DNA from: Halobellus captivus
Lineage (GTDB): Archaea > Halobacteriota > Halobacteria > Halobacteriales > Haloferacaceae
Assembly: GCF_003697845.1 (NCBI RefSeq)
Contig: NZ_RDQE01000012.1
Coordinates: 1 to 64,000, forward strand
Length of the DNA stretch: 64,000 bases
Direction: 5' to 3'
Shown here piece by piece: positions 4,557-37,413 of this stretch. The notes under the pieces were generated by a model. That model worked only from the letters and a program-made list of their open reading frames with translations, made no database searches and had not been told where the DNA came from. The position numbers and the translations under genes are program-made. Every line of letters begins with the position of its first letter. Within the stretch, counting starts at the first letter, position 1.

Positions 4557-5555
4557 ATGGTGGATTCAGAACGACCCTTAATCTCCGTCGTTGTCGGTGC
4601 TTACAACGAAGAAGACTCATTAGCCGACACGATTCAGAGCCTCCTTGGTCAATCGTTCAGTGATTACGAGATCATTATTGTTGACGATGGCTCAACAGAT
4701 AAGACAGCAGAAATTGCTAAGTCTTTTGAAGACACTCGTGTCCGACTTGTAGCTATAGACGAGAATATAGGGCTTCCTAAGGCATTGAATCGTGGAATTC
4801 AAGAGTCAGAGGGGGAGTACATTGCCAGAGCTGATGCGGATGAGTACTCTGATCCCTTTCGACTTCAGAAACAGCGATCGGTTTTTGAGGCAAATTCTGG
4901 CGTCCAAGCAGTTGGGTGTTGGTATGCGACAATCGGGCCAGATAACGAGAGGGTTGCGACGGTACAGGTGTCACAAAATCGTGACTTCGGAGTGAATGAT
5001 TTACTGAACAATGGACCTGGCATCGCTCATGGCTCTGTGATGATGCAGAAAGAAGCTATAAAGAGAGTAGGTGGATATCGTGAGGAATTTACCTTGGCTC
5101 AGGACTATGATTTATGGTTTCGCATGGCGGACGAGTTCGGTGAAGGCTGGCTTGACGTGGTGCCTGAAGTTCTCTACGAACGTCGCGTTGAAGCGCATCA
5201 ATTAGAGAAACGAGAACTGCAACGGCTGTTTGCCGAAACTGCGAGGAAATGCGCCAAACGACGACAGCGAGGAGAAGACGACACAGGGTTGCTCAAAGAG
5301 CTCTCCGACAGGGCTCAAGAAGTCGAGAGTCGCAATTTCAACTCTCGGGTGGCGACAGGAATGTATCACTACCTACAAGGGAATCACTTGTTGGAGCAGG
5401 GAAATCATACAGCTTCGCGCCATCGAGCGTTGAAAGCTATCTGGTTCGCTCCGACGAAACCCCGTCCATGGTATCTTTTACTCTTATCATCGCTACCAAG
5501 CGAATGGAGAGAAGCAGCGCAAAATTGGTCTCAAACCGTCTTCAGGGCGCGCTAG
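4557..5555 (+). CDS. Family 2 glycosyltransferase
   Basis: A 332-residue GT-A fold enzyme. Residues about 9-45 hold ISVVVGAYNEE and IIIVDDGSTDKT, the nucleotide-binding part. EYIARADADEYSDPFR (about 88-103) supplies the DxD metal site, and LAQDYDLWFRM (about 180) the catalytic-base region. The C-terminal 90 residues are helical and specific to this protein. It probably adds one sugar to a lipid-linked glycan at the cytoplasmic face. Base composition is clearly more AT-rich than the chromosome outside the island. Its 3' end overlaps the convergent methyltransferase gene by 14 bp. Confidence 0.9.
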   Translation: MVDSERPLISVVVGAYNEEDSLADTIQSLLGQSFSDYEIIIVDDGSTDKTAEIAKSFEDTRVRLVAIDENIGLPKALNRGIQESEGEYIARADADEYSDPFRLQKQRSVFEANSGVQAVGCWYATIGPDNERVATVQVSQNRDFGVNDLLNNGPGIAHGSVMMQKEAIKRVGGYREEFTLAQDYDLWFRMADEFGEGWLDVVPEVLYERRVEAHQLEKRELQRLFAETARKCAKRRQRGEDDTGLLKELSDRAQEVESRNFNSRVATGMYHYLQGNHLLEQGNHTASRHRALKAIWFAPTKPRPWYLLLLSSLPSEWREAAQNWSQTVFRAR

Positions 5556-6291
5556 AGCCACCGTTGGCTCCGGCTTCAAACACCATGATATTATCTACCG
5601 GCCACGTTTTCTCTGGAATTCGGGTATCTAACCTGGCAATGAGCGACTCAGATTCCTCCGGTAGGTAGTTTGCGTCTCTCTGTTCAAACTTCTCCACCCA
5701 GTACTTTCTCTCCTGCAAATTGATGTGGTGTGTCCCGTACTGGCCAGGTGGGGCAGCAGTGAATATGATTCTACCGCCATACTTGCTCCCAGAAATAATT
5801 GTACTAACTAGATTATCAGCGTAGATTGGATGAATGTGCTCTGCGACTTCGATACAGGTCACCACATCGTAACTCCCATCAATCGAAATTTCCTCTCGAA
5901 GATCGCCCTGACGCACAGAATCAACTAGCGCGTTCTCGACTGCCTTTGATGCACCCTCAATCCCGAAGACATTGATACTTGGTTGATTATCTTCGAACTT
6001 CTTGAGATAATGTCCGATTGCACAACCGATGTCAGCTACACTCTCAGGGTCGTACCTTCGAATCATCTCTGTGGTAAACTCTTCGGCAACTGTGTCGTGC
6101 GGTGGTTTCCTACGTTGAACGAAGTACTCCTCGGAGTATATTGAGTTAAGATTATTCAATTTAAAACGATCCAAAAATCGCAACATAGGGAGACGGAGAT
6201 AGAAACGAATCCAGCGTTGAGTAAAATACGCCTTCTTAGCAACCGGCTTAATAGAGTCAGGGAGAGTACTGTAAATCGATCTCAGTCTCAC
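5542..6291 (-). CDS. SAM-dependent methyltransferase
   Basis: A 249-residue class I methyltransferase. Motif I is VADIGCAIGHYLKKF (about residues 85-99), with a less usual Ala where the second Gly is common. The acidic end of strand 2 is FGIEGASKAVE, motif IV is YDVVTCIEVAEHI, and GGRIIFTAAPPGQ follows. The IEVAEHI motif and the genomic setting suggest methylation of a sugar in the surface glycan. It is the last gene of a three-gene minus-strand unit (AP-superfamily enzyme, flippase, methyltransferase); the gap to the flippase is 57 bp. Confidence 0.85.
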   Translation of the reverse strand: MRLRSIYSTLPDSIKPVAKKAYFTQRWIRFYLRLPMLRFLDRFKLNNLNSIYSEEYFVQRRKPPHDTVAEEFTTEMIRRYDPESVADIGCAIGHYLKKFEDNQPSINVFGIEGASKAVENALVDSVRQGDLREEISIDGSYDVVTCIEVAEHIHPIYADNLVSTIISGSKYGGRIIFTAAPPGQYGTHHINLQERKYWVEKFEQRDANYLPEESESLIARLDTRIPEKTWPVDNIMVFEAGANGGSSAP

Positions 6292-6348: not shown

Positions 6349-7815
6349 TCAGGATCGAGTCCCTCTTATTGTCTTGGATGCTTTTGACACCGCTTGGTTG
6401 ACTTCATCGGTTCTGAGAAGGTACAATACGAGCGTATAAGTCAAAATAGCCATAGGAATCGCAGAAGCTAGAAAGAGAAGTCCTCCAAAGAACTGAGTCA
6501 GAGAACTAACAAGAATCCATATAGCTCCTGATGCTCCCACGACTTTCGTACATAATTTGAGTTGATATTCAAATTTCATTATATTTCTACTATAGTTCGC
6601 AATCACACCGGTATATACTATATATGATATAAATGTCGCGATTGCAGCTCCTTGTATCTCCAATTCTGGTATTAGCATGAAATTCAGAATAATATTCACT
6701 AGTGCAGAAAATAGAAGAGCGGTCATCAGAAGTCTTGTTTTTTCTTCTAATTGAATGGGGTACGTGAGAATCTGACCAAGCCCATAAAAAAGAGACCCGA
6801 GGACGATCCAGGGAATAATCACTATAGTGTCATAGTACTCCTGCTCAACATATATTTGAACGAGGTCAGGGCCTATCGCTATCAAACCAACTGCTGCTGG
6901 GACACATAAGAGAATAAATAATCGAATCACCGTCTCGAAGCTCTTCGCCGCCTCTTTCCGACCCTTCGTTTCGAATACGCTCACCACTCTCGGATAAGTG
7001 GCCAATGAGATGAGTGAAAACGTCATAAAAACAACTCTATAGAAAATCTTGTATCCAGCAGCGTAGGTTCCCACTGCTGCAGCCCCTGAAATAACAAACA
7101 ATAAATAGTTGTCCGCGAGCTCGAGAACTCTCCCGCCGATCTGAGCACCAATGAATGGCAATCCGAAACTAGCAGACTGTTTCACCGTGCTAATGTCGAA
7201 GACGAACGACTTGTATAGGCCCTTGTTGTAGAGAATCAGCAATTCAACAATGCTAATCAAGCCAGAACCGATTACTAATCCTAATAGTCCCCCTAGCACA
7301 CCTAACGGGGTATAGATTATCACAGCAGCTGCAATACACAATTGAGCGATGGAGTTCGCACACACAAGCACCGTATATCGTCCAGCTCGATTTTCCGCTC
7401 TGCGAAGCGTGCTGACCAGCGAAAATGTACCCCGTGTTAGGACAAGGATGAGACCAGTTATACTGAATAGCACCCACTTAATTTCAATAGATTGTATAAT
7501 AAAAAATGTTGCTGACACCACAAGCAGTCCTATACCTAAAATGAGGAAGTAAGTGTTCAGAAGAGAAGATACCAACAATGAACTCTCTCCAGTCTGGTGG
7601 TATTTCTCGAAGTATCGTAACAGTGGTTGGCGCAACCATGATAAGACGAGGACTAAGCTGAATGAAACGCCAGTTAGTACTACAGTATACTCGCCATATT
7701 GATCATTTACGAGCAGTCTCGTCAAGACAACAACTGACAGAAAATTAATCAGAGCGGGAACAATTTTGGCGGGCGTGTACCTCAAGACGTCCGAACTGAG
7801 TCCACGATCAAGCAT
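6349..7815 (-). CDS. Oligosaccharide flippase (polysaccharide transporter family)
   Basis: A 488-residue integral membrane protein with about 12-14 hydrophobic segments spread evenly along its length. It starts with LRYTPAKIVPALINFLSVVV, typical of Wzx/MurJ-like exporters of the MOP superfamily, and has family-like segments LPFIGAQIGGRVLELADNYL and QIYVEQEYYDT. It would move lipid-linked oligosaccharide across the membrane. It starts 3 bases after the stop of the upstream AP-superfamily gene, which implies co-transcription. AT-rich codon use matches the rest of the left half of the island. Confidence 0.9.
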   Translation of the reverse strand: MLDRGLSSDVLRYTPAKIVPALINFLSVVVLTRLLVNDQYGEYTVVLTGVSFSLVLVLSWLRQPLLRYFEKYHQTGESSLLVSSLLNTYFLILGIGLLVVSATFFIIQSIEIKWVLFSITGLILVLTRGTFSLVSTLRRAENRAGRYTVLVCANSIAQLCIAAAVIIYTPLGVLGGLLGLVIGSGLISIVELLILYNKGLYKSFVFDISTVKQSASFGLPFIGAQIGGRVLELADNYLLFVISGAAAVGTYAAGYKIFYRVVFMTFSLISLATYPRVVSVFETKGRKEAAKSFETVIRLFILLCVPAAVGLIAIGPDLVQIYVEQEYYDTIVIIPWIVLGSLFYGLGQILTYPIQLEEKTRLLMTALLFSALVNIILNFMLIPELEIQGAAIATFISYIVYTGVIANYSRNIMKFEYQLKLCTKVVGASGAIWILVSSLTQFFGGLLFLASAIPMAILTYTLVLYLLRTDEVNQAVSKASKTIRGTRS

Positions 7816-7818
7816 TAT

Positions 7819-9327
7819 TTAAATATAGCCTAGGTCGCGAAGCGTATCTCTCACCGAATCTTCATATTCTGAGTTGATACCAACAGTTCCAAACGGTTCT
7901 ACAATCTCAAATAGCTTCGATTCTAAGTCTTCTTGATCTTGCAATTCATCCCCGTGTAATGGTATCTCACCGTTGATATCCACTTCCGACATTCTCTCTC
8001 TCCCATCTGAATGTATCGTCAATTTCCGGGCAGAAGAATCATATATCGTCTTTATCTCGAAATCGAGCTCTGAGTAATCTTGTTCTGGGTATTTTTCCAT
8101 AACTCGCTGAATACCGTCGAATGGAGAACCAAGATATTCAGCGACAGCGTAGTCACGTCCTTGCTCGTCTCTCGTTCGGGGCAGAGGTTGCGAATCTAAA
8201 CCAACCTCATCAGATTCGGAAACTCCGAGATTACATACCTGGTCAATGGTGGTGAACAGATCCACGGTCTGCACCAATTCTGAGATACGTTCTCCGCCTG
8301 TATCGCCAGGATAGGAGACTATAAGAGGTACTCGAAGGACTGCATCATTCAGTGAAAGTGAATGCCCCATGCGACCGAAATCACCGATATTCTCGCCGTG
8401 GTCTCCAACAATCACTACCAACGTATCTTTGAGGACTCCGCTCTCATTAAGTGATTTGACAATTTCTGAAATAGCTTGATCAGTTTGGCGCACAGCACCA
8501 TCGTAAAACGATTGAAGTAGCGCGAAGTCTTCATCATCCATATCGACGGCATTTGCATAATTATATAGTCGCGGATCCTGATTCACATCCGAGTACCCCG
8601 AGGTGCTGTGGTTAGGAGGTGCGACTTGTCTCAAAAATCCCTGATCCGGGATATATTTCAAGTGTGTTTCCATCAGGTTAATATATGTAAAGAAGGGTTC
8701 ATCGCTACCAAATACGATAGAATCAAAACTGTTGACGATCGAATTCGTACCTTTCGGCTCTCTTCGGCGATGACCAACGATAGACGTTCCGAGCAGTTTT
8801 GTTGCGAATTTATATGCCAAGTTAGACGCATCCTTGATATCCTTTTCCTCCCACAAGAATCCCGCTAAGTCCTCTACGAACGTTCTTGAAAATCCGTTTG
8901 ACGAAAATGACGACTTGATTTGAGAGTAGTCTGTATCGTTCGGAAACAACCGAGTTGGTATTTCAGTATAGTCAAACCCCGCATTCAGTCCATTTTCCAG
9001 TGTAAGTAGCTGATTCGCAGTCAGACAGTGCGTGGAATAACCCTTCTTGTTAAAGATCTTCGGAAGTGTAGGGATATGATTTGAGATAGAGGGATTACTT
9101 CGGGTTGCCCCATGTTTGCTCGTATAGAGTCCAGTGAACATTGATGCATGTGAGGGAACTGTCCAAGGTGAAGTGGATATCGTGTTCTCGTATACGTGAG
9201 ACTGCTCGGCGAATTCTTCTAAAAATGGGGTCGTATCTCGATCGTAGCCGTATAAAGAGAAGTTTCTGGCCCTGGCAGCATCTGAAACGATGAAAACGAT
9301 ATTAGGATTTACCTCAGTCGTCGTCAT
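7819..9327 (-). CDS. Sulfatase-fold (alkaline phosphatase superfamily) enzyme with Thr at the nucleophile position
   Basis: A 502-residue soluble protein with the AP-superfamily metal sites: Asp16 in VFIVSDAARARN, and GDHGEN with Asp309 and His310. The nucleophile segment is SPWTVPSHASMFTG (residues 53-66). Aligned with sulfatases (CxPSRxxxxTG), the Cys/Ser that becomes formylglycine is Thr56 and the following Arg is His60. Thr nucleophiles are known in phospho- and phosphonotransfer members, so a phosphotransferase or phosphodiesterase acting on the glycan is at least as likely as a sulfatase. It is the first gene of the unit with flippase and methyltransferase. It ends in LRDLGYI, like its paralogue at 13342-14799. 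Confidence 0.85.
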   Translation of the reverse strand: MTTTEVNPNIVFIVSDAARARNFSLYGYDRDTTPFLEEFAEQSHVYENTISTSPWTVPSHASMFTGLYTSKHGATRSNPSISNHIPTLPKIFNKKGYSTHCLTANQLLTLENGLNAGFDYTEIPTRLFPNDTDYSQIKSSFSSNGFSRTFVEDLAGFLWEEKDIKDASNLAYKFATKLLGTSIVGHRRREPKGTNSIVNSFDSIVFGSDEPFFTYINLMETHLKYIPDQGFLRQVAPPNHSTSGYSDVNQDPRLYNYANAVDMDDEDFALLQSFYDGAVRQTDQAISEIVKSLNESGVLKDTLVVIVGDHGENIGDFGRMGHSLSLNDAVLRVPLIVSYPGDTGGERISELVQTVDLFTTIDQVCNLGVSESDEVGLDSQPLPRTRDEQGRDYAVAEYLGSPFDGIQRVMEKYPEQDYSELDFEIKTIYDSSARKLTIHSDGRERMSEVDINGEIPLHGDELQDQEDLESKLFEIVEPFGTVGINSEYEDSVRDTLRDLGYI

Positions 9328-9463
9328 TACATAGATGGGAATCTTTATAACTACTAAAGCATATTGATATCACTAGCTTTGTGAGGTACTAATACTTGGT
9401 AGTCGAGTATATTCAACTGAGACGCAAGGTTGATTATAACGCTAGATTAAGAGGTTTATATTC

Positions 9464-10681
9464 GTGATGAGAGAATATAACAGTCCCGATGTATTTGAAA
9501 AGATAATTAACGGACTTCTTGTACTCTATGTCGTTACATCTCCGCTATACTTTCTTCGCTTAGGGACAAACATCGTTCCTACTGACTTTATTGGAGGAGT
9601 TCTAATCATACTCTGGGTAATACAAAGATCATACAAAAATGATAGAATTCTAATTCATTCTATTTATATTATCCCAGGTCTTCTGTCTGTGATTTCTATA
9701 GCCTCTACAATTTACGCCCCGTATGAACTTGAAGCATTTCCTTCTGGAGTCCTATTGCTGAATTTATGCATGATATCTATTATTATATACAATCGTATAA
9801 TCAAATATTTTCGATACGAAAAAAAAATTATCCAATTAATTATTTTATGGATGATAGGTGCGGTTACTGCAACTATTACTATATTTATTAATGAGATCAT
9901 AAATGTTGGAATGAGGGCAATAGCCCCGTCATATTCATATAGCCATAGGACACAACTTCCTTATCTGCTTGTCGTTACTGCTATTATATCAATTTATCTA
10001 TACAGATACTACGACGTAAGAAATCGGATTTTCGGCAAAATTAGTTCTATTTGTACATACCAATTTTCTATCTTTATATTATTCATTTCAATATCACGTG
10101 GACCTTGGATAGCTCTTACAGGTGTTTTACTCCCATCTTTCCTATTTTATAAGAACATCCGGAAAGATATAATTAAACTAAATATACCTAGTCTAGTTTT
10201 CAGTATAATAGTAGCGATATTCTTTGGACAACTTCAGCGGGTACTTGAGAGAGTAGCATCAATAGTTCAGCCAAACAATACAGAAACTTCTGCTAGATTG
10301 GAGATATATAATGAAGCACTAGATGTAGTATCTTCAAAACCAATGACCGGGATCGGTTGGAATAATTATTCTGTCATATACGATATCGCTGGGAGTGCAC
10401 ATTCCACTTACTTAACTATTAGCTCCGAGTTAGGAATACCTGCTCTCCTATTGTATATTCTTATTCCAATCGTTCTATCACGGGATTGGATGCGGATTGT
10501 ATCATCGGAGAAGCTTAGCTCAACCAATAAGCTTCTATACTTGGCACCCCTGGCAGGGGTACTAGGGCTCCTTGTAGGCCAAGTATTTTCCACGGCCATA
10601 CTATGGTTTCGTGCGTATTGGGTCCTTCTTAGTATTAGTGTCGCCACAATCACGATAGGTTCACATTCTAGTATTCGATAG
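9464..10681 (+). CDS. O-antigen ligase/polymerase-like membrane protein
   Basis: A 405-residue polytopic membrane protein with about 10-11 hydrophobic segments. The family loop is recognisable: KPMTGIGWNNYS followed by AHSTYLTISSELGIPALLL (about residues 288-330), the pattern seen in O-antigen ligases and Wzy-like polymerases. It would join or extend glycan repeat units at the outer face of the membrane. It is the most AT-rich gene in the window by eye, with many ATA and AAT codons, which fits horizontal origin. It is divergent from the AP-superfamily gene across a 136-bp AT-rich promoter region. Confidence 0.8.
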   Translation: MMREYNSPDVFEKIINGLLVLYVVTSPLYFLRLGTNIVPTDFIGGVLIILWVIQRSYKNDRILIHSIYIIPGLLSVISIASTIYAPYELEAFPSGVLLLNLCMISIIIYNRIIKYFRYEKKIIQLIILWMIGAVTATITIFINEIINVGMRAIAPSYSYSHRTQLPYLLVVTAIISIYLYRYYDVRNRIFGKISSICTYQFSIFILFISISRGPWIALTGVLLPSFLFYKNIRKDIIKLNIPSLVFSIIVAIFFGQLQRVLERVASIVQPNNTETSARLEIYNEALDVVSSKPMTGIGWNNYSVIYDIAGSAHSTYLTISSELGIPALLLYILIPIVLSRDWMRIVSSEKLSSTNKLLYLAPLAGVLGLLVGQVFSTAILWFRAYWVLLSISVATITIGSHSSIR

Positions 10682-10699
10682 TATTCTGATGAGTTGACC

Positions 10700-11090
10700 A
10701 CTCTTCGGAGATTGTTGGTCGAGTAGAGCTGTCGCTATGAAAGCGTAGCAGGCAAGGGTGACGCGGCAGTATCATCCGAATTCCAATATTCTCATTTAAA
10801 TTGCTTAGCTCAGAGGTGAGTGTCGCGAACCTGCTCCAGCAGGTTCGCTGGCACGATGACCTCTGCTGCCCGCACTACCGGTCTAAGGCAGTGATCGAAC
10901 ACAGCAGCTACGGGAGTATCAGAGGTATCTCTGTAAGACATTCTTGGGTAGAGGATTGTTGGTCAATTCTCAGCAGGAGCTGGAAAGCAGGCAAGGGTGA
11001 CGCAGTGGCGTCACCCGATGAACAGTGTTCCCTATCAAGATGTTCGTGTCGGAGCGTCGCGCCGCAGATCTGCTGACACAGATTCGCTGG
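10700..11090 (+). mobile_element. Two nested relics of an IS1595-type transposase 5' end
   Basis: The stretch around 10801-10930 reads VANLLQQVRWHDDLCCPHYR, then VIEHSSYGSIRG, matching the N-terminal zinc-binding part of IS1595-type haloarchaeal transposases (usual pattern LLxQxRWRDG, CPxC, IxxGSY). A second start follows at about 11040-11095, MFVSERRAADLLTQIRWCDG. The non-coding leader in front of each also repeats: GCAGGCAAGGGTGACGC occurs near 10750 and near 10990. Both copies break off soon after the start and carry frameshifts. They are dead fragments. Confidence 0.7.
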
Positions 11091-11094
11091 TGTG

Positions 11095-11400
11095 ACGGCA
11101 TAGCGAAGATGGTACTCGTCGCTGTCCCGGTTAAGCACACCGACGAGTCGGAACGCTCGGGTCGTGCTGACGCTCGACTCTCGCTTACGGTCGAATGAGA
11201 GGGTGATTTAGACATCGATTTCCTGTCGCTACAGGTCGTCAAGGACGTCCTACAGCGACTCACCTTCGAGTGAAATACTGCTTCCTCGCCACGTGCAAAG
11301 CTCTTCGACGATCTCGAAGTTCGCGTCATGCTTAACATGTGAGACGAACCAGCCGTCGTTCTGGTCAATACGGTCGAACGGCGGTGTTCAGATAAGCCTG
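11095..11400 (-). mobile_element. Internal relic of an IS4-type (ISH3/ISH51-like) transposase
   Basis: Read on the minus strand from about 11390, the sequence gives FDRIDQNDGWFVSHVKHDAN, then FEIVEELCTWRG, then LSFDRKRESSVSTTRAFRLV, then GVLNRDSDEYHL. This is the central catalytic part of haloarchaeal IS4-type transposases. Several in-frame stops interrupt it (for example after EGES and before RQEIDV). It abuts the IS1595-type relics of the opposite strand, so at least two elements entered here and decayed. From 11400 to 11680 no gene is recognisable. Confidence 0.7.
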
Positions 11401-11681
11401 AGAGTAATATTCGCCAGGAGAACGCCTCTCACGACAGAACCCAGCCGAGAGCAACGATCTGGTGAGGAGAAGTGAAACTGATCGTGGCCGAATCAGCGTT
11501 CGGAATATTCAGCTCGCTCACCTATCAAACGGAGCAATTCACGGACCTCCACAACGATATTACTACAAGTTTTATCTGATCACTACCTACTGAAGAGCAA
11601 CAATTCTTTATACTTGAGTGTGTTGTCACGCATAGACCGCTACCGGTGAACTGATTAGGCCGGCCATACCTCAATTGACTA

Positions 11682-12776
11682 ATGATACGTGTGGCCGCTC
11701 TACTCGGAGTTCTCCGTCATACGACTATCGCGTACGAGATATCCGAGCATATCGGTCAATTCCCTAATATCGAAATGACTGTTATCAGTTATAACGACTC
11801 TTTGATCGATGACTTGGAGATCGAGATCGACACCGATGTTGTGACTGTCAAAACTCTTAATGCCTCTAACCGACTTGACCTGAGAGCTATCTCAGAGTTA
11901 CATGATCTTCTCCGAAATGAGTCCTTCGACCTGCTTCACACCCATCATAACTTTGTGGGATCGCTCGGCTGTATGGTTGCTCCTTCCGATCTGCCGATCA
12001 TCGATACAGAACACGCCAATCACAAGGATCACTATTCAGTCGCACAGAATCTTGTTAATTCTGTAACTCTTGGGCGTGCAAACCGAGTTGTCGCTAACTC
12101 GCAAGCGACACTTGATTCGTTGTATCCACACGAACGGGTACTTGTTCCTTCAAATCAAAGATGTGTGATATACAATGGAGTTGATGTAGATTGGATCGAT
12201 ACCTCCACTAAAGATAAAACATGGAGGACTGATTCCCCACGGGTCACGACAGTTGGGCGATTGATCCCTGTGAAAAACCAAGAGACTCTCATCAATAGCT
12301 TCTCAGCTGTTCTTGACAAGGTACCTGACGCAGAGCTTGTCATTGTTGGTAGTGGACCCAGACAGTCAGCACTTGAAAAGATAGCCGAATCCAACGGAAT
12401 TCAGGATAGTATTACGCTAACGGGCGGAGTGTCCCGAGAAGAAGTATATAATATACTTTATTATTCAGATGTGTTCGCTCTTTCATCGTACTCTGAGGGA
12501 TTCTGTGTCGCATTGCTGGAGGCTATGGCAAGTGGTTGTCCACCTGTCGTCAGTAATATCCCAGTGCTACATGAGGTCGCTGGCGATACGGCTGTGTTCG
12601 TCGATCCTGAGGATACTGAAGGATTCTCAGCCGAAATCACGAGACTACTTGATGATGAAGATCGATATCAGAGATACTCTATAGAGACAAGAGAACGCGC
12701 ACGAACGGTCTTTTCAATAAAGCGAACAGCTGAGGAGTATCTCGATCTCTATCAAGAAGTCGCAGAAGGATCATGA
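11682..12776 (+). CDS. Family 4 glycosyltransferase (GT-B)
   Basis: A 364-residue GT-B enzyme. The N-terminal acceptor domain includes FDLLHTHHNFVGS (about residues 85-97). The C-terminal donor domain includes VTTVGRLIPVKNQETLI, LVIVGSGPR and the E(x)7E motif in SEGFCVALLEAMASGCPPV (about 275-293). Such enzymes transfer a nucleotide-sugar residue with retention. It stands alone, between IS relics upstream and 565 bp of empty AT-rich sequence downstream, so its operon context may have been lost. Composition is moderately AT-rich. Confidence 0.9.
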   Translation: MIRVAALLGVLRHTTIAYEISEHIGQFPNIEMTVISYNDSLIDDLEIEIDTDVVTVKTLNASNRLDLRAISELHDLLRNESFDLLHTHHNFVGSLGCMVAPSDLPIIDTEHANHKDHYSVAQNLVNSVTLGRANRVVANSQATLDSLYPHERVLVPSNQRCVIYNGVDVDWIDTSTKDKTWRTDSPRVTTVGRLIPVKNQETLINSFSAVLDKVPDAELVIVGSGPRQSALEKIAESNGIQDSITLTGGVSREEVYNILYYSDVFALSSYSEGFCVALLEAMASGCPPVVSNIPVLHEVAGDTAVFVDPEDTEGFSAEITRLLDDEDRYQRYSIETRERARTVFSIKRTAEEYLDLYQEVAEGS

Positions 12777-13341
12777 ATGAATCAAACAAATATATCCATA
12801 AATTGAGGAATATTTCGAATGTCCAGTCAATTCACTACTTGAGACAAAATATTCTCCGTAGATCCATTATCGATAATACGAATTAGATGAATAATTATAG
12901 TGGTGTCGATACTGTATTTAGATCAAAAATTGAAAGTATACATATTAAATTAACATTAAATGTAATATTTGGAGCGTTCGTAAATGCTTGAATTCGGTCA
13001 CTCCGGCTCGGTTTCTAGGATCACAATCCTTGACAATTCGTCACTCACAGCCTTAATCGAACGTGGAATGGAGTTGGAAGGATCACGTTTCAATGTACAG
13101 ATCTAAGACTCCACACCCTTTCCTCTATCTCTACGGTCAGCCAGTCTCAGAATAAATCAATAGAGAAATGTAGTTTAAGAGATTCAAACTAGATAAAATC
13201 GGCAGAAAATCTAAGAGAACCGCGATCTAGATGCTCGTAGAAGAGAAATGATAATAGATAGAAGAAAAAATACAATTACCCGAAAAATAATATAATGTAT
13301 GGAAATTCGATGAAAACAAGGCAGAAACGATCTCCCAATCT
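12777..13341. other. Gene-free AT-rich stretch
   Basis: No convincing gene. On the minus strand 12998-13106 gives a 35-codon open stretch ending VSDELSRIVILETEPE that looks protein-like but has no start and no recognised family; it may be a relic. The last 150 bases are very AT-rich and should contain the promoter of the gene starting at 13342. Confidence 0.5.
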
Positions 13342-14799
13342 ATGACCAACATCGCCCTCATCGTAATGGATACCGCCCGGTACGATTCGATACTGGATAC
13401 CCGGGCAAAGCTATCGACCTTCGAGACCCTCCGAGAGGAAGGCACGACATACACCTCCGCGTTCGCGAGTGCCCCGTGGACGCTCCCCTCACACGGAGGG
13501 CTCTTCTCCGGGCGGTACTCGTCGAGACACGGCGCGAGTGCGGCCGCGAAACGCTTCCCGGAGAGCGTTCCCACCGTCGTCGAATCGTTCGCGAACGCCT
13601 CCTACGAGACGGTCGCCGTCTCGAACAACACCTGGATCAGTGACGAGTTCGGGTTCGCCCGTGGGTTCGACACTTTCCGGAAGAACTGGCAGTACATCCA
13701 GTCTGACGTCGACCTCGGGAAGATCGCCCGAGAGGAGGAGGGATTCGACAAGATACGCGGCGTCGCGAGACAGCTGTTCGACGGGAACCCGATCGTCAAC
13801 GCCGCGAACGCGGTATACGGACAGTTCGTCAGGAAGCGGGCCGACGACGACGGCGCGAAGGGGACGAATCGATGGGTGGCCGATTGGCTCGACGACCGCG
13901 ACGACTCGAACCCGTTCTTCCTGTTCATCAACTACCTCGAACCACATCTCGAATATCGCCCACCCGAGGAGTACACGGAGGAGTACCTCCCCGAGGGTGT
14001 GAGCTACGCGGAGGCGATGGAAGTCAATCAGGACGCCTGGACGTACATCGCGAACGACGTCGAGATGACCGAACAGGACTTCGAGATCCTCGAAGGGCTC
14101 TACCACGCGGAGATCGCCTACCTCGACGAGCGCATCGGCGAGCTCCGCCGACTACTGGAGGAGGCGAACGAGTGGGAAGACACCGTCTTCGTCGTCACGG
14201 GCGACCACGGCGAGAACATCGGCGATCACGACCTCATGGACCACCAGTACAGCCTCCACGACACGCTGATCCACGTGCCGCTCGTGATCCACGGGGACGC
14301 GTTCACGGGCGGGGAGACGGTCGACGACCTCGTCCAGTTGACCGACCTCGCGCCGACCCTGCTCGATGCGGCCGGAATCGAGAACGACGAATTCGAAGAA
14401 CAGTCACAGGGCCGGTCGTTCCATCCGGATTCCGAAACCGAACCACGGGAGTACGCCTTCGCCGAATATCTGGCTCCACAACCCTCGATGGAGGCACTCG
14501 AAAAGCGCGTCGGCGATCTACCCGAGGAAGTGTACGAGTACGACCGATCGCTCCGAGCGATCCAGAGCGAGGACTGGAAGTTGATCCGGGGCTCGGATGG
14601 GTCGACCGAACTCTACCACGTTGCCGAGGATCCCGACGAACTGAGGAACCTCACTGCGGATCGTCCTGAGAAAGTCTCCGAACTCGAATCTGAACTCGAC
14701 ACGTGGCTCGACTCGTTCGACCACGCCGACGTAACGGGTGACGTCGACATGAGCGACGAAACCAAAGACCGGCTGGAAGATCTCGGCTACCTTCAGTAG
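13342..14799 (+). CDS. Sulfatase-fold (AP superfamily) enzyme with Thr at the nucleophile position
   Basis: A 485-residue paralogue of the protein encoded at 7819-9327. Metal ligands are visible as Asp10 in IVMDTARYDS and Asp288/His289 in GDHGENIGDHDLM. The nucleophile segment APWTLPSHGGLFSG puts Thr47 where sulfatases have the modified Cys and His51 in place of Arg. The late part ELYHVAEDPDELRNL (about 425-440) is the usual sulfatase C-terminal strand, and the protein ends LEDLGYLQ. The gene is GC-rich, unlike its paralogue, so the two probably arrived separately. Sulfate or phosphate chemistry on the surface glycan is inferred from context only. Confidence 0.85.
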   Translation: MTNIALIVMDTARYDSILDTRAKLSTFETLREEGTTYTSAFASAPWTLPSHGGLFSGRYSSRHGASAAAKRFPESVPTVVESFANASYETVAVSNNTWISDEFGFARGFDTFRKNWQYIQSDVDLGKIAREEEGFDKIRGVARQLFDGNPIVNAANAVYGQFVRKRADDDGAKGTNRWVADWLDDRDDSNPFFLFINYLEPHLEYRPPEEYTEEYLPEGVSYAEAMEVNQDAWTYIANDVEMTEQDFEILEGLYHAEIAYLDERIGELRRLLEEANEWEDTVFVVTGDHGENIGDHDLMDHQYSLHDTLIHVPLVIHGDAFTGGETVDDLVQLTDLAPTLLDAAGIENDEFEEQSQGRSFHPDSETEPREYAFAEYLAPQPSMEALEKRVGDLPEEVYEYDRSLRAIQSEDWKLIRGSDGSTELYHVAEDPDELRNLTADRPEKVSELESELDTWLDSFDHADVTGDVDMSDETKDRLEDLGYLQ

Positions 14800-14899: not shown

Positions 14900-16012
14900 C
14901 TAACAGAGTTCAAGGAGTTCTCTTGAAGTCTCTTCTACTGTCTCAGACCACGAAAATTCAGCTTCAACGGTTTTTCGCCCATTCCGTCCATACTCCTCGC
15001 GTGTCTTGTCATTATTGAGGAGACATTTAACCGCGGTACACATACCTTCCGTATCACCCCACTCTACGGTTGCTCCGGCTCCCGAAACGACATTGACGAT
15101 TTGATCCAGATCCGTACACACTACTGGAGTTCCGGATGCCATCGCCTCCATGACGACGCGCGGGAATCCCTCTGCCCTGCTCGGCAGTAGCAACACGTCC
15201 GCCGTCCGGAATATCTTCGGCATATCGTCGTAGTCAACTAGGCCCAGGAACTCCACGGTCGATTCCAGCCCCCGGGCCGCCACGTCCGCTTCGAGCTCCT
15301 CACGAAGCGGTCCGGATCCAACCATGTACAACCGGACGTTGGGATGATCCGCCTGCAGGCGTTCGATCGCATCGATCGCGTGGTGTGGTCCCTTACCCTC
15401 GACGAGCCGTCCAACGAACAACACGCTCGGTACGTCATCGTCGATCAGTTCGCTTGTGAGTCCGTCAGGATGGAACTTCTCTGCGTCCACTCCATTGGTG
15501 ATCACTTCAATGTCGGTCGTAACGCCGATCTCTCTAGTCGCCTCCCGCTCCGCATCCGTGTAACAAAAGACGACATCCGCGCTGTTGAGCGTCCATCGTC
15601 CGATCGTTTTCAGATAGTACGAGAACAACCGATCCGGAGCTGACTGCGAATACAGGGAGTGGTTCGTGATCGCGAGCGGTATATCACCCAACCATCGCTT
15701 CAGCGCCGCGAGGTTCGTGCTAAAGTAGAAGTGGGAGTGGGCGTGGATCACGTCGAACTCTTTCGCTCCGAGGATCCGGCGGGCCGCCGTGACCGAGATC
15801 TCGTTTTTTAAAAGGTTCACCGTCGTGGGACAGTAGACGATCTCGTATCCATGGCGAGTTTCCCGTCGGACTCGATCGACGTCATCCGTCACCTTTAGAA
15901 CGGTCACATCGTGACCCATCGCCGCCTGATCACGACTCATTGCGTGGACGTGGTATTCACCGCCACCGATCTCGTCCGGGTACAACCAGTGGCTCACACG
16001 AAGGATCCGCAT
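14900..16012 (-). CDS. Family 4 glycosyltransferase
   Basis: A 370-residue GT-B enzyme. Start MRILRVSHWLYPDEIGGGEYH, acceptor-domain signature FDVIHAHSHFYFSTNLAAL (about 85-103), donor-domain signature SVLFVGRLVEGKG, and the E(x)7E motif in RAEGFPRVVMEAMASGTPVV (about 280-300). It is the last gene of a minus-strand unit with the polysaccharide deacetylase and formyltransferase genes. A paralogue truncated after about 150 codons lies upstream of that unit at 17755-18294, so this glycosyltransferase was once duplicated. Confidence 0.9.
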   Translation of the reverse strand: MRILRVSHWLYPDEIGGGEYHVHAMSRDQAAMGHDVTVLKVTDDVDRVRRETRHGYEIVYCPTTVNLLKNEISVTAARRILGAKEFDVIHAHSHFYFSTNLAALKRWLGDIPLAITNHSLYSQSAPDRLFSYYLKTIGRWTLNSADVVFCYTDAEREATREIGVTTDIEVITNGVDAEKFHPDGLTSELIDDDVPSVLFVGRLVEGKGPHHAIDAIERLQADHPNVRLYMVGSGPLREELEADVAARGLESTVEFLGLVDYDDMPKIFRTADVLLLPSRAEGFPRVVMEAMASGTPVVCTDLDQIVNVVSGAGATVEWGDTEGMCTAVKCLLNNDKTREEYGRNGRKTVEAEFSWSETVEETSRELLELC

Positions 16013-16068: not shown

Positions 16069-16881
16069 TCATACACTCTCACCGATCGGCTCCCAATCAA
16101 ACGCGGAGAGGAGACGCTCGAATTTACGCTCCGTTCGTTCGATATTCGTGTAATGTCGGGCACGATACTGCCACTTAACGTCATCGACCCGCGGCTGATC
16201 TGGGTCGAGTTCCCACGGATGGAGATAGAACACGCAGTCACGCTGCGTTGCGATCCGCTCCAATCCACGTCGATAAACTGAGTAGGGAATAACTCTGAAA
16301 TATCCCCCACCCGCCCACGGGATCCGCGTGACTTTGGCATCAATGAGTGGAAGTTGTACCTCGGTGAACCCGTCACGGATCTCCGTGAACGTCTCCGCGG
16401 AGTCAACACTCAATCCGCCGTACCGATCATGAACCGGTGCGGCAAAGAGACTCGAATCGTATTCGAATCCGAGATCGTCAAGCACGTCGATCGCCCAGTC
16501 GGTGATCGAGAAGCTTGGTGCGCGATAGCCGCGAACCCGCTGGCCCGTGATCGTCTCAAGCAGGTCTACCGATCGAGCGATGTCCGCACGAACGTCTTCC
16601 GGCTCCTGTTCGTAGAGGAGCCTATGATTGTATCCGTGGCTAGCGATCTCGTGCCCCCGGTCCGCGATCTCTGCGACGAGTTCAGGAGCTCGGTCGGCGA
16701 CGTGACCTAACACGAAGAAGGTCGCTTTCGTGTCGTGTTCGTCAAGCAGGTCAAGAATCCGGTTTGTACCGTGTTGGACGCGAAGTTCGTACTCGTCCCA
16801 CTGATCTCGATCAAGGCCATTCCAGAGGTTGTGCGAGTGAAACCAGTCTTCGACGTCGATAGAGAGATACATGTCGCTCAT
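16069..16881 (-). CDS. Polysaccharide deacetylase (NodB fold with DUF3473-like end)
   Basis: A 270-residue carbohydrate esterase 4 type protein. The catalytic Asp pair lies in YLSIDVEDWFHSH (residues 5-17), and the zinc site HxxxH in HEIASHGYNHR (His86 region). RGYRAPSFSITDWAIDVLDDLGF and the late IPWAGGGYFR and FYLHPWELDP motifs are typical of the exosortase-associated branch with a DUF3473-like tail. It would remove an N-acetyl group from an amino sugar. Its start overlaps the stop of the upstream formyltransferase by 4 bases (ATGA), so the two are translationally coupled. Confidence 0.9.
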   Translation of the reverse strand: MSDMYLSIDVEDWFHSHNLWNGLDRDQWDEYELRVQHGTNRILDLLDEHDTKATFFVLGHVADRAPELVAEIADRGHEIASHGYNHRLLYEQEPEDVRADIARSVDLLETITGQRVRGYRAPSFSITDWAIDVLDDLGFEYDSSLFAAPVHDRYGGLSVDSAETFTEIRDGFTEVQLPLIDAKVTRIPWAGGGYFRVIPYSVYRRGLERIATQRDCVFYLHPWELDPDQPRVDDVKWQYRARHYTNIERTERKFERLLSAFDWEPIGESV

Positions 16882-17645
16882 ACGAGCTGGTTTCCCCGCC
16901 TCTGGAACTCCCTTCGATCGCTCTTCGTCGGAAAAGAGAAGTACGAGCCCTCGCCAGTCATCTCCGTAGTCGCTTCCGTTCCCGCCGCGATCTCGTTGAT
17001 CGCCTCCGCAACAAGTCGACCGCCCTCCCGTTTCCCTCTCAGTATTGCGTCGTCAAGAGTCGTGTTCGTGTCTATCGGAAAGGTTCGCTGTTTCATGATC
17101 TGACCCCTATCGATTTCTGGAACCATCGTGTGTACCGTGGTCCCGATCTGATCTTCACCGTGATACAGGGCCCAAAACGTCGGGAGCATTCCCCGGTATT
17201 TCGGCAACTCCGCCGTGTGGACATTTAGACAGTACTGGTTCGGTACGTCGAGTAATTTTTCATCGAATATCTGTGATGCCGAGACCGACAATAGGACGTC
17301 GATATCAGTAGCATCTACCCATTGGATATAGGTATCCTCATTGATACCATCACGTTTCTCGACGGTTATTTCGTGCTTCTGAGCCACTGAATCGACAGAA
17401 TATGTACCGATACCGATCCTATCGGATATCTTTCTACTTGTATACGCGACTGATCGACGAAGGAAGTGTATTGGTCCATAGAAATCGAGCATACGTTTGG
17501 CGAATACAGGTAACGTTTCATCAAGAAGGTCAAGGATCGTTATACGTTCGACGACTACATCATCTAGTCTTGGAAGAAATTCTTGAAAGAAGGTGGGCAT
17601 ATAAAACGGGTCATCCTGTGTGACGATCGCGATTCGGAGCGTCAT
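16878..17645 (-). CDS. Formyltransferase family protein
   Basis: A 255-residue relative of methionyl-tRNA formyltransferase and of the sugar N-formyltransferases. The catalytic triad region is visible: Asn in NQYCLNVHTAELPKYRGM (residues about 140-157) with His148, and Asp in VPEIDRGQIM. Substrate binding is likely to N-10-formyl-THF. Coupled to a deacetylase and a glycosyltransferase, it most simply formylates an amino sugar set free by deacetylation. N-terminal MTLRIAIVTQDDPFYMPTFF carries the Rossmann strand. It is the first gene of the three-gene unit. Confidence 0.85.
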   Translation of the reverse strand: MTLRIAIVTQDDPFYMPTFFQEFLPRLDDVVVERITILDLLDETLPVFAKRMLDFYGPIHFLRRSVAYTSRKISDRIGIGTYSVDSVAQKHEITVEKRDGINEDTYIQWVDATDIDVLLSVSASQIFDEKLLDVPNQYCLNVHTAELPKYRGMLPTFWALYHGEDQIGTTVHTMVPEIDRGQIMKQRTFPIDTNTTLDDAILRGKREGGRLVAEAINEIAAGTEATTEMTGEGSYFSFPTKSDRREFQRRGNQLV

Positions 17646-29501: not shown

Positions 29502-30476
29502 ATGTCAGTTCTGATCACCGGCGGGGCGGGATTCATCGGCTCGCATCTCATTGATCACCTCCTCGCCGAGACCGACGACCGGGTCGTCGTTCTCGATGAC
29601 TTCTCGACCGGCAACGCGGCGAACCTCGCCCACCTCGATACCGATCGAGTCGAGACGGTCGACGGTGACGTCCGGGACGGCTCCCTCGTCACGGACCTCG
29701 TCGCGGACTCCGACGCCGTCTACCACCTCGCGGCCGCGGTCGGCGTGAAGACGATCGTCGAGAACCCGTTGGACTCGATCCGGACGAACCTCAAGGGAAC
29801 GGAAAACGTCCTCGAGGCGGCGGCGGCGGACGCCACCCCGACGTTCATCGCCTCCTCATCGGAGGTGTACGGCAAGTCCGAGTCCGTTCCCTTCGCGGAG
29901 GACGACGATCGAGTGTACGGTCCGACGACCTCCCCACGGTGGGGGTACGCGACCGCCAAGGCCGCCGACGAGTTCCTCGCGTTGGGCCATCACTCGGAAC
30001 ACGATCTCCCCGTCGTCGTCGGGCGCTACTTCAACATCGTCGGTCCGCGACAGACGGGGCAGTACGGGATGGTGATCCCCACGTTCGTCGAGCAGGCGCT
30101 CGCCGGGGACGACCTCACGGTATACGGTGATGGAACCCAGACCCGAAGCTTCACGCACGTCGCCGAGGCCGTCTCGATCACGCACGAACTACTGACGACG
30201 CCCGAGGCCCACGGCCGGGTGTTCAACGTCGGGACGCCGGATCCGACCTCGATCAACGACCTCGCGACCAGAGTGATCGAACTCACGGATTCGGATTCCG
30301 GGATCACTCACGTCCCCTTCGCGGAGGCGTACAGCGAGGACTTCGAGGAACCCGACGAACGGGAACCCGACGTCTCGAAACTTCGGGACGTTCTGGGACG
30401 AACACCCACGGTCGAGCTCGACCGGATCCTGCACGACGTGATCGACGAACGAACGGACGAGGTGCCCGCACGATGA
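29502..30476 (+). CDS. NAD-dependent sugar epimerase
   Basis: A 324-residue extended short-chain dehydrogenase. NAD site ITGGAGFIGSHLIDHLL (residues 5-21), acidic ribose-binding residue in VVVLDDFSTGN, and catalytic FIASSSEVYGKSE with YATAKAADEFLAL (about 115-165, YxxxK). RYFNIVGPRQTGQYGMVIP and YGDGTQTRSFTHVAEAV are typical of UDP-sugar epimerases. The next gene, a nucleotide-sugar dehydrogenase, overlaps its stop by 4 bases, so the pair should make an oxidised UDP-sugar for glycan synthesis. Confidence 0.9.
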   Translation: MSVLITGGAGFIGSHLIDHLLAETDDRVVVLDDFSTGNAANLAHLDTDRVETVDGDVRDGSLVTDLVADSDAVYHLAAAVGVKTIVENPLDSIRTNLKGTENVLEAAAADATPTFIASSSEVYGKSESVPFAEDDDRVYGPTTSPRWGYATAKAADEFLALGHHSEHDLPVVVGRYFNIVGPRQTGQYGMVIPTFVEQALAGDDLTVYGDGTQTRSFTHVAEAVSITHELLTTPEAHGRVFNVGTPDPTSINDLATRVIELTDSDSGITHVPFAEAYSEDFEEPDEREPDVSKLRDVLGRTPTVELDRILHDVIDERTDEVPAR

Positions 30477-31798
30477 CTGGCGTCGAAAGAGGTCTCGCGA
30501 CCCGTGACGCGAGGATCGGCGTGATCGGCCTCGGATACGTCGGCCTCCCGTTGAGTCTCGCCTTCGTCGATGCAGGCTTCGAGGTTCGAGGCTTCGACAT
30601 CGACGAGGAGCGTGTCGGACGCCTCCGGAACGGGGATAGCTACGTCGACGACGTGAGCGACGCCGAACTCACGGCGGGACTCGACGAGGGGTTCATCCCG
30701 GAGGCGACTTCGTCCGTCGTCGCCGACTGTGACGCGTACGTCATCGCGGTTCCCACCGGCGTCGCCGACGGGGAACCGGCGATGGGCGCCGTCAGGGCCG
30801 CCGCGAGAACGATCGCCGAGCAGGCGGGCGAGCGCGAGACGCTCGTCATCGTCTCCAGTACGGTCTACCCGGGAGCCACGAGCGAGGTGGTCGCCCCGAT
30901 CGTCTCCGCGGATCGTCCCGCCGGATCGACCCTGTTCGCGATGGTTCCCGAGCGACTCAATCCCGGCGGTGGTCACGAGATCGCGGAGATCCCGCTCGTC
31001 GTCGGCGCGGACGATCCGACCGCACGGGACGCGGCAGCGGCGCTCTTCGAATCGATCACCGAGACGGTCCCGGTGGATGCGACCGAGACGGCCGAACTCT
31101 CGAAGACTCTCGAGAACACCTACCGGATGGTGAACATCGCGCTCGTCAATCAGCTCGTCGCACTCGCCGAACGGCTCGACGCCGACGTGTGGGAGGCGAT
31201 CGACGCCGCCGGGACCAAGCCGTTCGGCTTCCAGGCGTTCGAACCCGGCCCCGGCGTCGGCGGCCACTGTATCCCGATCGACCCACAGTTCCTGACGTGG
31301 CGGGCGAACGAGACCGGCACGGAACTCCCGTTCATCGAACACGCACACGAGGTGAACGAAGGGATGCCCGGTCGGGTCGTCGAGGGGGTGACCACCGCGC
31401 TCGAAGCCCGTGGCGTTCCCCTCGAGGACGCCTCGGTGCTCGCGTTCGGCGCGGCGTACAAGCCGAACGTCGGCGATCCGCGACACTCACCCGCGATCGA
31501 CGTGTTCGAGGAGCTCCGTCGCCACGCCGACGTGACGCTCGTCGATCCGCACGTCGACCCCGAGGAGCTGTGGGTTCCAGTCACGGAATCAGTGAGCGAC
31601 GCAACGATAGAGGCGGCCGACGCGGCCGTCCTCCTCGTGGACCACGACGCGTTCGATCTGGTCCGACTGGGCGAGCACGCCTCGTTCGTGTACGACGCGA
31701 AGAACGCGATGCCGGATGACACGTCCGCGACCGTGGTGACGCTGGGGGAGACGACGGCGCGCGTCGATACGGTGGTTGAAGAGCCACCGACGCGCTGA
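30473..31798 (+). CDS. Nucleotide-sugar dehydrogenase (UDP-glucose/UDP-ManNAc type)
   Basis: A 441-residue two-domain dehydrogenase. The NAD site is IGVIGLGYVGLPLSLAF (residues 16-32). AVPTGV, SSTVYPGATSEVV and PERLNPGGG follow. The catalytic Cys is in GPGVGGHCIPIDPQF (about residues 260-274), and SVLAFGAAYKPNVGDPRHSP (about 322-341) is the C-terminal domain signature. It oxidises the C6 alcohol of a UDP-sugar to the uronate in two NAD-dependent steps. It is coupled to the epimerase upstream. Confidence 0.9.
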   Translation: MTGVERGLATRDARIGVIGLGYVGLPLSLAFVDAGFEVRGFDIDEERVGRLRNGDSYVDDVSDAELTAGLDEGFIPEATSSVVADCDAYVIAVPTGVADGEPAMGAVRAAARTIAEQAGERETLVIVSSTVYPGATSEVVAPIVSADRPAGSTLFAMVPERLNPGGGHEIAEIPLVVGADDPTARDAAAALFESITETVPVDATETAELSKTLENTYRMVNIALVNQLVALAERLDADVWEAIDAAGTKPFGFQAFEPGPGVGGHCIPIDPQFLTWRANETGTELPFIEHAHEVNEGMPGRVVEGVTTALEARGVPLEDASVLAFGAAYKPNVGDPRHSPAIDVFEELRRHADVTLVDPHVDPEELWVPVTESVSDATIEAADAAVLLVDHDAFDLVRLGEHASFVYDAKNAMPDDTSATVVTLGETTARVDTVVEEPPTR

Positions 31799-31882: not shown

Positions 31883-33319
31883 TCACACTTCGTGGTCGTC
31901 TTCTCCGAGTGACGCCACGTCGCGGGCAACCTGCCAGAGTTGGCGTAACACGATCTTCACGTCGAACGTGAACGATTGTCTACGGATGTACTCGACGTCG
32001 TAGTCGATCTTCAGCGACGGTTCCTGACTCGTCGCATCGTGGATCTGAGCGAGCCCTGTGAGACCGGGTTTCACGAACCACCGGCGCTTCCAGGTTGCCG
32101 CTTCGTTCTCGAAATCGTCCTCGAGGTCAGTCTGGGCGGGTCGCGGACCGACGACACTCATGTCCCCGACGAGGATCGACCACAGTTGCGGGATCTCATC
32201 GAGATGGGTCATCCGGAGGAAGTCACCGAGCCGGGTGCGTCGGCCATCGTCGAACACGGTTCCGACTTCTCCTTCAGGTTCCGGCTTCAGCGTCCGGAAC
32301 TTGTAAACCGTGAACGTATCTCCAAATCGGTATGTTCGGTTCTGAGAGAACAGGATCGGTCCGTTTCCTTCGAGTTTGATCGCAAGCGAGATCAGGAGGA
32401 TAACAGGAGCGAGGACGAGCAGCGCAGTCCCGGCGAACGAGACGTCGAACAGTCGTTTGATTACTCGATCTTGCGGATCCCAGGGGTCGAGGTCGATGTC
32501 GACGATCGGTCCATCACCGCTCGTGGGATCGACGAGGAGGCTGTCGACGTGGTCGACGTGTGCTTTCGCATCGATCCCGTGTTCGTGACAGGAATGTAAT
32601 GCACCGAAGAATTCGGCGCGATCCGCCGTTTCGAACGCGAGGATCGCTGAATCGACGTTGTACTCGCGGACGGCATCCTCGAACCGGGAAAGCCCACCGA
32701 CGTACCCGTGTTCGAAGACAGTCCGGCCGCCGTCAGTAACTGTGGCCGGTTCACGGTCAGTAGGATCGTCACCCGACCGGTAGGGAGTCGGAGGAGCGAC
32801 GTAACCGAGCATTGGCCCGTCGTACACGTCGGCGACGTGCTCGATGTTGGCGGGATCGTCGCCGATGACGAGTGATCGCTCCCCGTCCATGGATGGGGCC
32901 CGAGAGATCGCCACGAACAGTGCGGGAAGCGTGATCGACAGGAGGACTGTGGTGAGGATCACCGTTTGGCGCGGGAGGCGATGTGACCACTTGAAGTAGC
33001 CGAGCGTCGCCATCGCACAGACTGCGAAGACGACCCGTTTCTCGACGGAAAACACCACGTCGAGCACGCGTCGTGGCTCCGGTCGGAAAAGCGGGACGAA
33101 CGAGGCCAACACGATCGCCGTGGAGATGAAAACGGCCCACCGGAGTCCATTCCCCGTCAACACGATCGGATCGAGCCTGTTGACGATCGGAACGTGCGTC
33201 GTGAGGATCGCCTGAAGTAGGGGAAGGTTCGCGACGTACACGGAGAGCGTCGCGAGCGCCGCGACCCCGACGACGCCCGTGAGTCGATACCGCCAACCCG
33301 TGAGCATTACGCGAAACAC
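31883..33319 (-). CDS. Polyprenyl glycosylphosphotransferase (bacterial sugar transferase family)
   Basis: A 478-residue membrane enzyme. The N-terminal half has 4-5 hydrophobic segments and a degenerate nucleotide-binding domain ([20 protein letters not shown]). The catalytic C-terminal domain begins at [20 protein letters not shown] and continues with [53 protein letters not shown] and [11 protein letters not shown]. It would start a lipid-linked glycan by moving a sugar-phosphate onto a polyprenyl phosphate. An alternative ATG four codons downstream is equally possible. It is convergent with the UDP-sugar dehydrogenase gene. Confidence 0.9.
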
Positions 33320-35839: not shown

Positions 35840-35988
35840 TACCCGTCCGTGTGCGGGCGACCGGGTAAAAGCCTCCGTTGTCGTCGGGTCGGTCGTCCGT
35901 TCGTCGGCCTCGTCGGCGTGCGCCCTCTCCTCGCCCGCCCCGAGCCGGGATCGGGCGTTTTACTCCGACGCGTCGTCACCGGGAGTCC

Positions 35989-36435: not shown

Positions 36436-36447
36436 GGAGATCGGTCG

Positions 36448-37008: not shown

Positions 37009-37010
37009 CC

Positions 37011-37406: not shown

Positions 37407-37413
37407 CGATCGA

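Follow-up and report, generated by a model that had tools for sequence, protein, structure and literature searches.

Thr-type sulfatase-fold proteins of a haloarchaeal polysaccharide cassette: probable glycan sulfotransferases that share a C-terminal tail with sulfate activation proteins

The window analyzed here, a 64,000-nucleotide stretch of the genome of the haloarchaeon Halobellus captivus (contig NZ_RDQE01000012.1, positions 1 to 64,000 of the forward strand; contig C4 of an assembly of 3.59 Mb in 37 contigs, GCF_003697845.1), encodes a Wzx/Wzy-type polysaccharide cassette with two proteins of the alkaline phosphatase superfamily, P0001 and P0002. Judged from their sequences, these are probably cytosolic glycan sulfotransferases built on the sulfatase fold, and not sulfatases. 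They belong to a haloarchaeal class with Thr or Ser at the nucleophile position, and they carry a C-terminal LxxLGY tail that recurs in proteins of sulfate activation and in Agl30 and Agl31 of Halobacterium salinarum, for which glycan sulfation has been demonstrated (PMC11980604). In the open PMC literature, covered at the level of titles and abstract starts and with subscription papers outside this scope, we found no account of a haloarchaeal nucleophile class or of an LGY tail, and no sulfotransferase reading beyond that paper.

A Thr/Ser-type class of haloarchaeal sulfatase-fold proteins

P0001 (502 residues; 7819..9327, minus strand), a Thr-type protein of the kind named 'sulfatase', and P0002 (485 residues; 13342..14799, plus strand) match the profile PF00884 with E values of 2.6e-46 and 3.7e-34 (158.7 and 118.8 bits against a gathering cut-off of 25). 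By sequence, the solved structures closest to them are those of sulfatases and phosphonate monoester hydrolases. By profile match they share the fold of the formylglycine sulfatases (PF00884; SulfAtlas S1), but neither has the C/S-x-P-x-R signature of those enzymes: the motif is SPWTVPSHASMFTG in P0001 and APWTLPSHGGLFSG in P0002. As the preliminary description had read from the translations (WTVPSH and WTLPSH), Thr takes the place of the formylglycine residue and His that of the neighboring Arg; the predicted nucleophiles, Thr56 of P0001 (codon at 9160..9162, minus strand) and Thr47 of P0002 (13480..13482, plus strand), fall in the same alignment column. Its further statement that all other metal motifs are kept holds for the first Asp (D16 in P0001, D10 in P0002) and for the Asp-His pair, but not for the pocket column, where the Lys of Cys-type homologs is replaced by His (H322 and H301), nor for the DD/DQ pair that sulfatases carry, the second Asp of which is Ala or Thr in the window pair. 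Residues invariant in a 14-sequence alignment are, in P0002 numbering, W46 (directly before the nucleophile column), H202, D288, H289, G290 and H301.

Collecting homologs and scoring their motif and gene neighborhood, as the preliminary description had suggested, bears out its proposal of a haloarchaeal class that databases name sulfatase. Among 118 distinct homologs, taken from all loci collected up to that point and merged when their last 60 residues were identical, the nucleophile column holds Thr in 89, Ser in 18 and Cys in 10; one further row is truncated and has a gap there. His occupies the pocket column in 104 of the 107 Thr/Ser rows (the others having P in L050, S in L156_12979 and a cut sequence in L082), as against Lys in six and a gap in four of the Cys-type rows. 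The tail, in a definition looser than the pattern given below, ends 101 of the 107 Thr/Ser-type proteins and none of the 10 Cys-type ones (Fisher p 9e-11, with relatedness ignored); the six tail-less Thr-type homologs are two from H. captivus itself (L005 and L009), two cut by locus ends and two on a viral contig. When a tree of 117 rows is rooted on four CSPSR-type sulfatases, the Thr/Ser rows form a single clade of exactly 107 leaves (support 0.81), which takes in the homologs of the H. salinarum cluster (from the type strain, not NRC-1); the branch uniting P0001 and its single ortholog with the P0002 family has support 0.98. Haloarchaeal PF00884 proteins fall into two groups, Cys-type and Thr/Ser-type, the latter being told from true sulfatases by the linked traits of a Thr/Ser nucleophile, a pocket His and an LxxLGY tail. 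Since relatives of P0002 at E<=1e-50 occur in 285 of the 392 genomes of the order and Thr in 89 of the 118 homologs, the WTxPSH motif is not a chance substitution.

The counts agree with the earlier view that P0001 and P0002 are not formylglycine sulfatases. That they might be such enzymes with a maturation that accepts Thr is highly improbable even though sulfatase profiles of both Pfam and NCBIfam match them: oxidation of Thr would give a ketone and not formylglycine (PMC5066984), PSH replaces PSR, the pocket column holds His, and all of the Cys-type homologs lack the tail. Thr as a formylglycine precursor is rejected. Thr at the nucleophile position is not new by itself: the authors of SulfAtlas found it in 30 of the 59 Pfam seed sequences that they considered, and cautioned against regarding such proteins as functional sulfatases (PMC5066984).

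Relatives encoded on plasmids go by the names 'sulfatase' or 'sulfatase-like hydrolase/transferase'. Seven homologous open reading frames (ORFs) on six bacterial plasmid records all lack the tail, six having C-x-P-S/A-R and one no readable motif. On pNG700 of Haloarcula marismortui (L248, 10365-15869) three sulfatase-like genes lie within 6 kb among glycosyltransferases, two of their products ending in LGY and one in MGY. A single scan of viral contigs gave three weak loci, and a search of phages gave no match; two IMG/VR contigs filed as viral (L251 and L252) encode Thr-type homologs ending in LKGLGYFD and LGGLGYFG.

The LxxLGY tail and its link to sulfate activation

P0001 ends in LRDLGYI (7822..7842, minus strand) and P0002 in LEDLGYLQ (14773..14796, plus strand), where L478, L481, G482 and Y483 are invariant in the 14 sequences. 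Homologs within the H. captivus genome that share 30% identity or less still share this ending in the alignment (LRDLGYI, LEDLGYLQ, LADLGYL, LEALGYR). The pattern [LIVMF]..LGY followed by up to four residues at the C-terminus is present in 104 of 1279 ORFs, against 0.7 expected from its internal frequency; selection of these ORFs relied on an acidity score of our own design, by which some genes are missed or mis-started, and the set is enriched for adenosine 5'-phosphosulfate (APS) kinases and CysD-like proteins, since loci had been collected for those genes. Of the tailed ORFs, 81 match the superfamily profile and make up 81 of all 93 that do so, with a mild bias toward tailed proteins because this profile was built by us from 12 full-length sequences with the tail included. 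The other 23 are seven NPP-like and two short proteins (one of each was scanned and both match PF01663, itself a superfamily member), eight CysD-like proteins and six APS kinases; the last two are the only families outside the superfamily with the tail among the 1279 ORFs. The tail was not seen on any of the glycosyltransferases, flippases or six classical sulfotransferases encountered, which include five that had served as queries. In 798 kb of sequence sampled without regard to sulfur or glycan genes (398 kb from H. captivus and 400 kb from H. salinarum), a single ORF out of 693 has the tail, and it belongs to the class. Searching three whole genomes with the pattern returned 21 matches against 19 for a reversed-pattern control, a count not above chance, and the informative part of this search is the identity of the tailed proteins and not their number: leaving control matches out, the 17 with a true stop are 11 superfamily members, four CysD-like proteins (two of them contig-end fragments) and two open frames of 67 and 144 residues.

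The CysD-like protein, detected in 381 of the 392 genomes at E<=1e-40, best matches the sulfate adenylyltransferase subunit CysD (E 2.7e-22, below the model cut-off) and less well the reductase for 3'-phosphoadenosine 5'-phosphosulfate (PAPS; E 6.2e-6). Its copies in H. captivus are broken at contig ends and end in RLRDLGYM; the breaks lie at the first bases of contigs C19, C32 and C10 (G000), where the assembly seems to break in near-identical gene copies. Canonical ATP sulfurylase (PF01747) is present in just 12 of the 392 genomes. PF01583 for APS kinase matches 387, nearly all by weak P-loop cross-matches, and a threshold of E<=1e-30 leaves 32 by hand count, with neither H. captivus nor H. 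salinarum among them. In ten loci (L147-L156) an APS kinase adjoins ATP sulfurylase; the C-terminal ending of these kinases is LGY in seven cases, MGY in one and LGH in another, and the remaining kinase has none of these. The sulfurylase gene sat occurs in 2 of 11 genomes without the CysD-like protein and in 10 of 381 with it, a difference too weak to use (p 0.04).

The same ending is found in the two enzymes that have been studied experimentally. Agl30 (VNG1056C, a membrane protein) and Agl31 (VNG1057C, soluble) are described as sulfatase-like proteins of the alkaline phosphatase superfamily; their deletion lowers N-glycan sulfation, and when either one is expressed in Haloferax volcanii, the glycan of that host gains a group of 80 Da (PMC11980604). 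In the reverse primers used for their cloning (Table 1 of PMC11980604), the gene-specific ends translate to HLEDLGY and LEELGY directly before the tag, so both carry the tail, and the primer for VNG1063H translates to KELGYIE. That paper uses neither 'motif' nor 'Pfam' as a word, and the sections consulted say nothing on the tail. Like the window pair, Agl30 and Agl31 combine superfamily membership, sulfatase-like relatives, a glycan gene cluster and the tail, but they act on the AglB N-glycan (PMC11980604), whereas the genes of the window pair accompany those for Wzx and Wzy. The type strain of H. salinarum, DSM 3754, encodes three tail-bearing homologs with the motifs WTPASS, WSVSSH and SVGSQSAEW on one 18-kb contig with glycosyltransferases, and the hydrophobicity of one of them peaks at residue 24, near the transmembrane span reported for Agl30 at residues 21-39 (PMC11980604). 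In the H. captivus genome, two tail-bearing homologs with the motifs IHSVSSH and IHSVASH adjoin the main aglB gene (L019, G000:C2, 1114-10526) and are possible counterparts of Agl30 and Agl31.

It is a serious possibility, if not the one we favor, that the tail is merely an inherited structural end of the fold and that its presence on CysD-like proteins and APS kinases reflects convergence without a shared partner, which would be compatible with any view of the enzymatic activity. Within the superfamily the tail could well be inherited, just two families outside it are tailed, and Agl30 and Agl31 worked with a tag placed after the tail (PMC11980604), so a free C-terminus is not required. Yet the APS kinase tail is placed on an extension of roughly 30 residues past the kinase domain, with LGY kept in seven of ten cases and MGY or LGH in two more, and the tailed families are those of sulfate activation, whereas none of the six classical sulfotransferases and no other neighbors have it.

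Classical-type sulfotransferases are encoded in L148, L149, L152, L154 and L155 (PF00685 was checked for L148 and L149), several of them among glycosyltransferases. These PAPS-dependent enzymes (PF00685/PF13469), accompanied by sat-cysC, likewise transfer sulfate and adjoin glycosyltransferase genes in a minority of haloarchaeal genomes, but their fold is unrelated to that of the window pair, for which PF00685 was absent from the Pfam matches, and none occurs in 40 neighborhoods of P0002 relatives. Three further loci (L162-L164) have a second kind of APS kinase of about 286 residues, apparently fused, by eye, to a nucleotidyltransferase-like part and devoid of an LGY tail; the L164 copy is flanked by a Sulfotransfer_3 protein and a YqcI/YcgG protein.

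Proposed sulfotransfer and its alternatives

P0001 and P0002 are proposed to decorate sugars of a Wzx/Wzy-type repeat polysaccharide, or of its lipid-linked precursor, at the inner face of the membrane. A metal held by Asp, Thr and Asp-His would activate the Thr, which would accept the sulfuryl group of an activated sulfate donor before handing it to a sugar hydroxyl, while the tail may bring the transferases together with the donor-making proteins. Neither protein has a hydrophobic segment (maximum KD19 of 1.07 for P0001 and 0.85 for P0002), which agrees with the soluble Agl31, and they are predicted to be cytosolic on that account. Among 40 neighborhoods of P0002 relatives, chosen by hand from the match list for spread, all of the 23 closest have at least two glycan genes. 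A glycan sulfo- or phosphotransfer role, as first suggested for the pair, fits both the gene cluster and the result published for Agl30 and Agl31 (PMC11980604).

Of the two branches, the phosphotransfer one, in which the pair would be glycan phosphotransferases or phosphodiesterases whose Thr would accept a phosphoryl group or a phospho-alcohol from a donor, either a nucleotide or a lipid, and add it to the sugar, like EptA, LtaS and NPP, is the main rival but appears unlikely. Thr as nucleophile together with Asp, Asp-His and two His is the phosphotransferase pattern of the superfamily, and EptA/MCR, LtaS and NPP have their Thr with Asp and Asp-His as in the window pair. P0001 weakly matches the EptA/CptA/MCR models of NCBIfam, ATP sulfurylase and full APS kinase are missing from H. 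captivus (see below), and a gain of 80 Da at the printed precision fits sulfate and phosphate alike. However, the EptA-type matches stay at or below 49 bits against a cut-off of 500, with family cut-offs not reached, and EptA and LtaS are membrane-anchored and act outside the membrane, whereas P0001 and P0002 have no anchor. The tail-sharing Agl30 and Agl31, moreover, act on a glycan whose sulfates were defined by nuclear magnetic resonance (as cited in PMC11980604). Since the tail is shared with sulfate activation proteins, the sulfo branch is the likelier one.

More unlikely still are hydrolases (phosphatases, phosphodiesterases or sulfatase-like esterases) acting in the trimming or recycling of glycan esters. 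Most enzymes of this fold are hydrolytic, and the nearest solved structures are of hydrolases, but the genes sit in an assembly cluster with a flippase, a polymerase and glycosyltransferases, and the pair is cytosolic by sequence. The tail-bearing relatives that have been tested add groups (PMC11980604).

Several points weigh against sulfotransfer by the window pair. AlphaFold models from 5- and 4-row alignments reached a mean predicted local distance difference test score of 48 and 38, too poor for placing the site, and the D-T-DH-H pattern also resembles phosphotransferases such as EptA and LtaS. Neither H. captivus nor H. salinarum has a canonical ATP sulfurylase (PF01747 search over the 392 genomes), a full-length APS kinase (best E 1.3e-5 and 2.6e-5) or a CysD over the model cut-off, which makes the sulfate donor the weak point of this reading. 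The near-universality of the CysD-like protein may mean that it has another job and that its tail reflects something besides sulfation. Only one of the 17 farther neighborhoods of P0002 relatives has glycan genes, so the outer P0002 family may serve other, non-glycan targets. The NRC-1 proteins Agl30 and Agl31 are known here by their primer-encoded tails and not by their nucleophile, and the Ser-bearing proteins of DSM 3754 (WSVSSH, GSQSAEW) are their probable, not proven, orthologs. The Haloferax glycan was printed at m/z 1264.45, at which sulfate (1264.448) and phosphate (1264.453) are not separable.

As the donor, APS supplied by the CysD-like protein is the simplest guess, though a bold and unproven one, offered because the PAPS enzymes were not detected in organisms with documented sulfation. 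Extended to a general pathway, the proposal is speculative and, on balance, doubtful: most haloarchaea might sulfate their surface glycans without PAPS, the CysD-like protein making APS, Thr/Ser-type sulfatase-fold enzymes passing the sulfuryl group of APS to sugars via covalent sulfo-Thr or sulfo-Ser, and the shared LxxLGY tag docking the APS maker, the APS kinase where present and the transferases into one sulfation complex; P0001 and P0002 would be two of these transferases, serving a repeat-unit polysaccharide. The name sulfatase is given to many haloarchaeal genes, and if the class adds sulfate, this annotation is backwards and a sulfatase fold has turned transferase. Two questions would then become testable, namely how haloarchaea activate sulfate when they lack the usual ATP sulfurylase and APS kinase, and which enzymes are behind the sulfation long known in their surface glycans, and the tail would serve as a simple sequence marker for locating pathway components.

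The polysaccharide cassette around the pair

The window holds a repeat-unit polysaccharide locus adjoining a surface-protein gene. Three bases from P0001 lies a Wzx-like flippase (6349..7815, minus strand; PF01943 E 7.1e-16), preceded by a methyltransferase (5542..6291, minus strand; PF13489 E 1.4e-9) and a family 2 glycosyltransferase (4557..5555, plus strand; PF00535 E 2.1e-33). A Wzy-like O-antigen ligase/polymerase (9464..10681, plus strand; PF04932 E 1.2e-19) and a family 4 glycosyltransferase (11682..12776, plus strand; PF00534 E 3.4e-39) lie between P0001 and P0002. Beyond P0002 there follow a second family 4 glycosyltransferase (14900..16012, minus strand; PF00534 E 1.8e-36), a polysaccharide deacetylase (16069..16881, minus strand) and a formyltransferase-fold protein (16878..17645, minus strand; PF00551 E 5.3e-19). 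The deacetylase is of the XrtA type and scores above the equivalog cut-off (TIGR03006, 316.8 bits against 276.2), though the host is an archaeon. Farther along are an NAD-dependent sugar epimerase/dehydratase (29502..30476, plus strand; PF01370 E 2.9e-56), a protein of the UDP-glucose/GDP-mannose dehydrogenase family (30473..31798, plus strand; PF00984 E 1.7e-30) and a bacterial-type initiating sugar-phosphate transferase (31883..33319, minus strand; PF02397 E 4.5e-53).

The two genes differ in GC content, as had been noted, with 0.445 for P0001 and 0.615 for P0002, and the AT-rich stretch at P0001 extends over the adjoining genes too. This contrast had been taken to mean that similar enzymes were recruited twice at the locus, but a genome of another family (G258, locus L066) has orthologs of both (56% and 68% identity) within about 9 kb, in a cassette with counterparts of the flippase, methyltransferase, glycosyltransferases, epimerase, dehydrogenase and sugar-phosphate transferase, and with the GC contrast repeated (0.469 and 0.589). 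The pair and its contrast were thus inherited together, and independent double recruitment is rejected.

Next to the sugar-phosphate transferase, the window encodes a second, divergent STT3/oligosaccharyltransferase-like protein (33404..35839, minus strand; TIGR04154 E 3.8e-30, below cut-off), possibly the transferase for a second, repeat-unit N-glycan, and beyond it a PGF-CTERM protein that looks like an S-layer glycoprotein. A divergent STT3-like gene near the presumed S-layer gene is seen both in the window (33404-40386) and in H. salinarum (L032:1447-9624).

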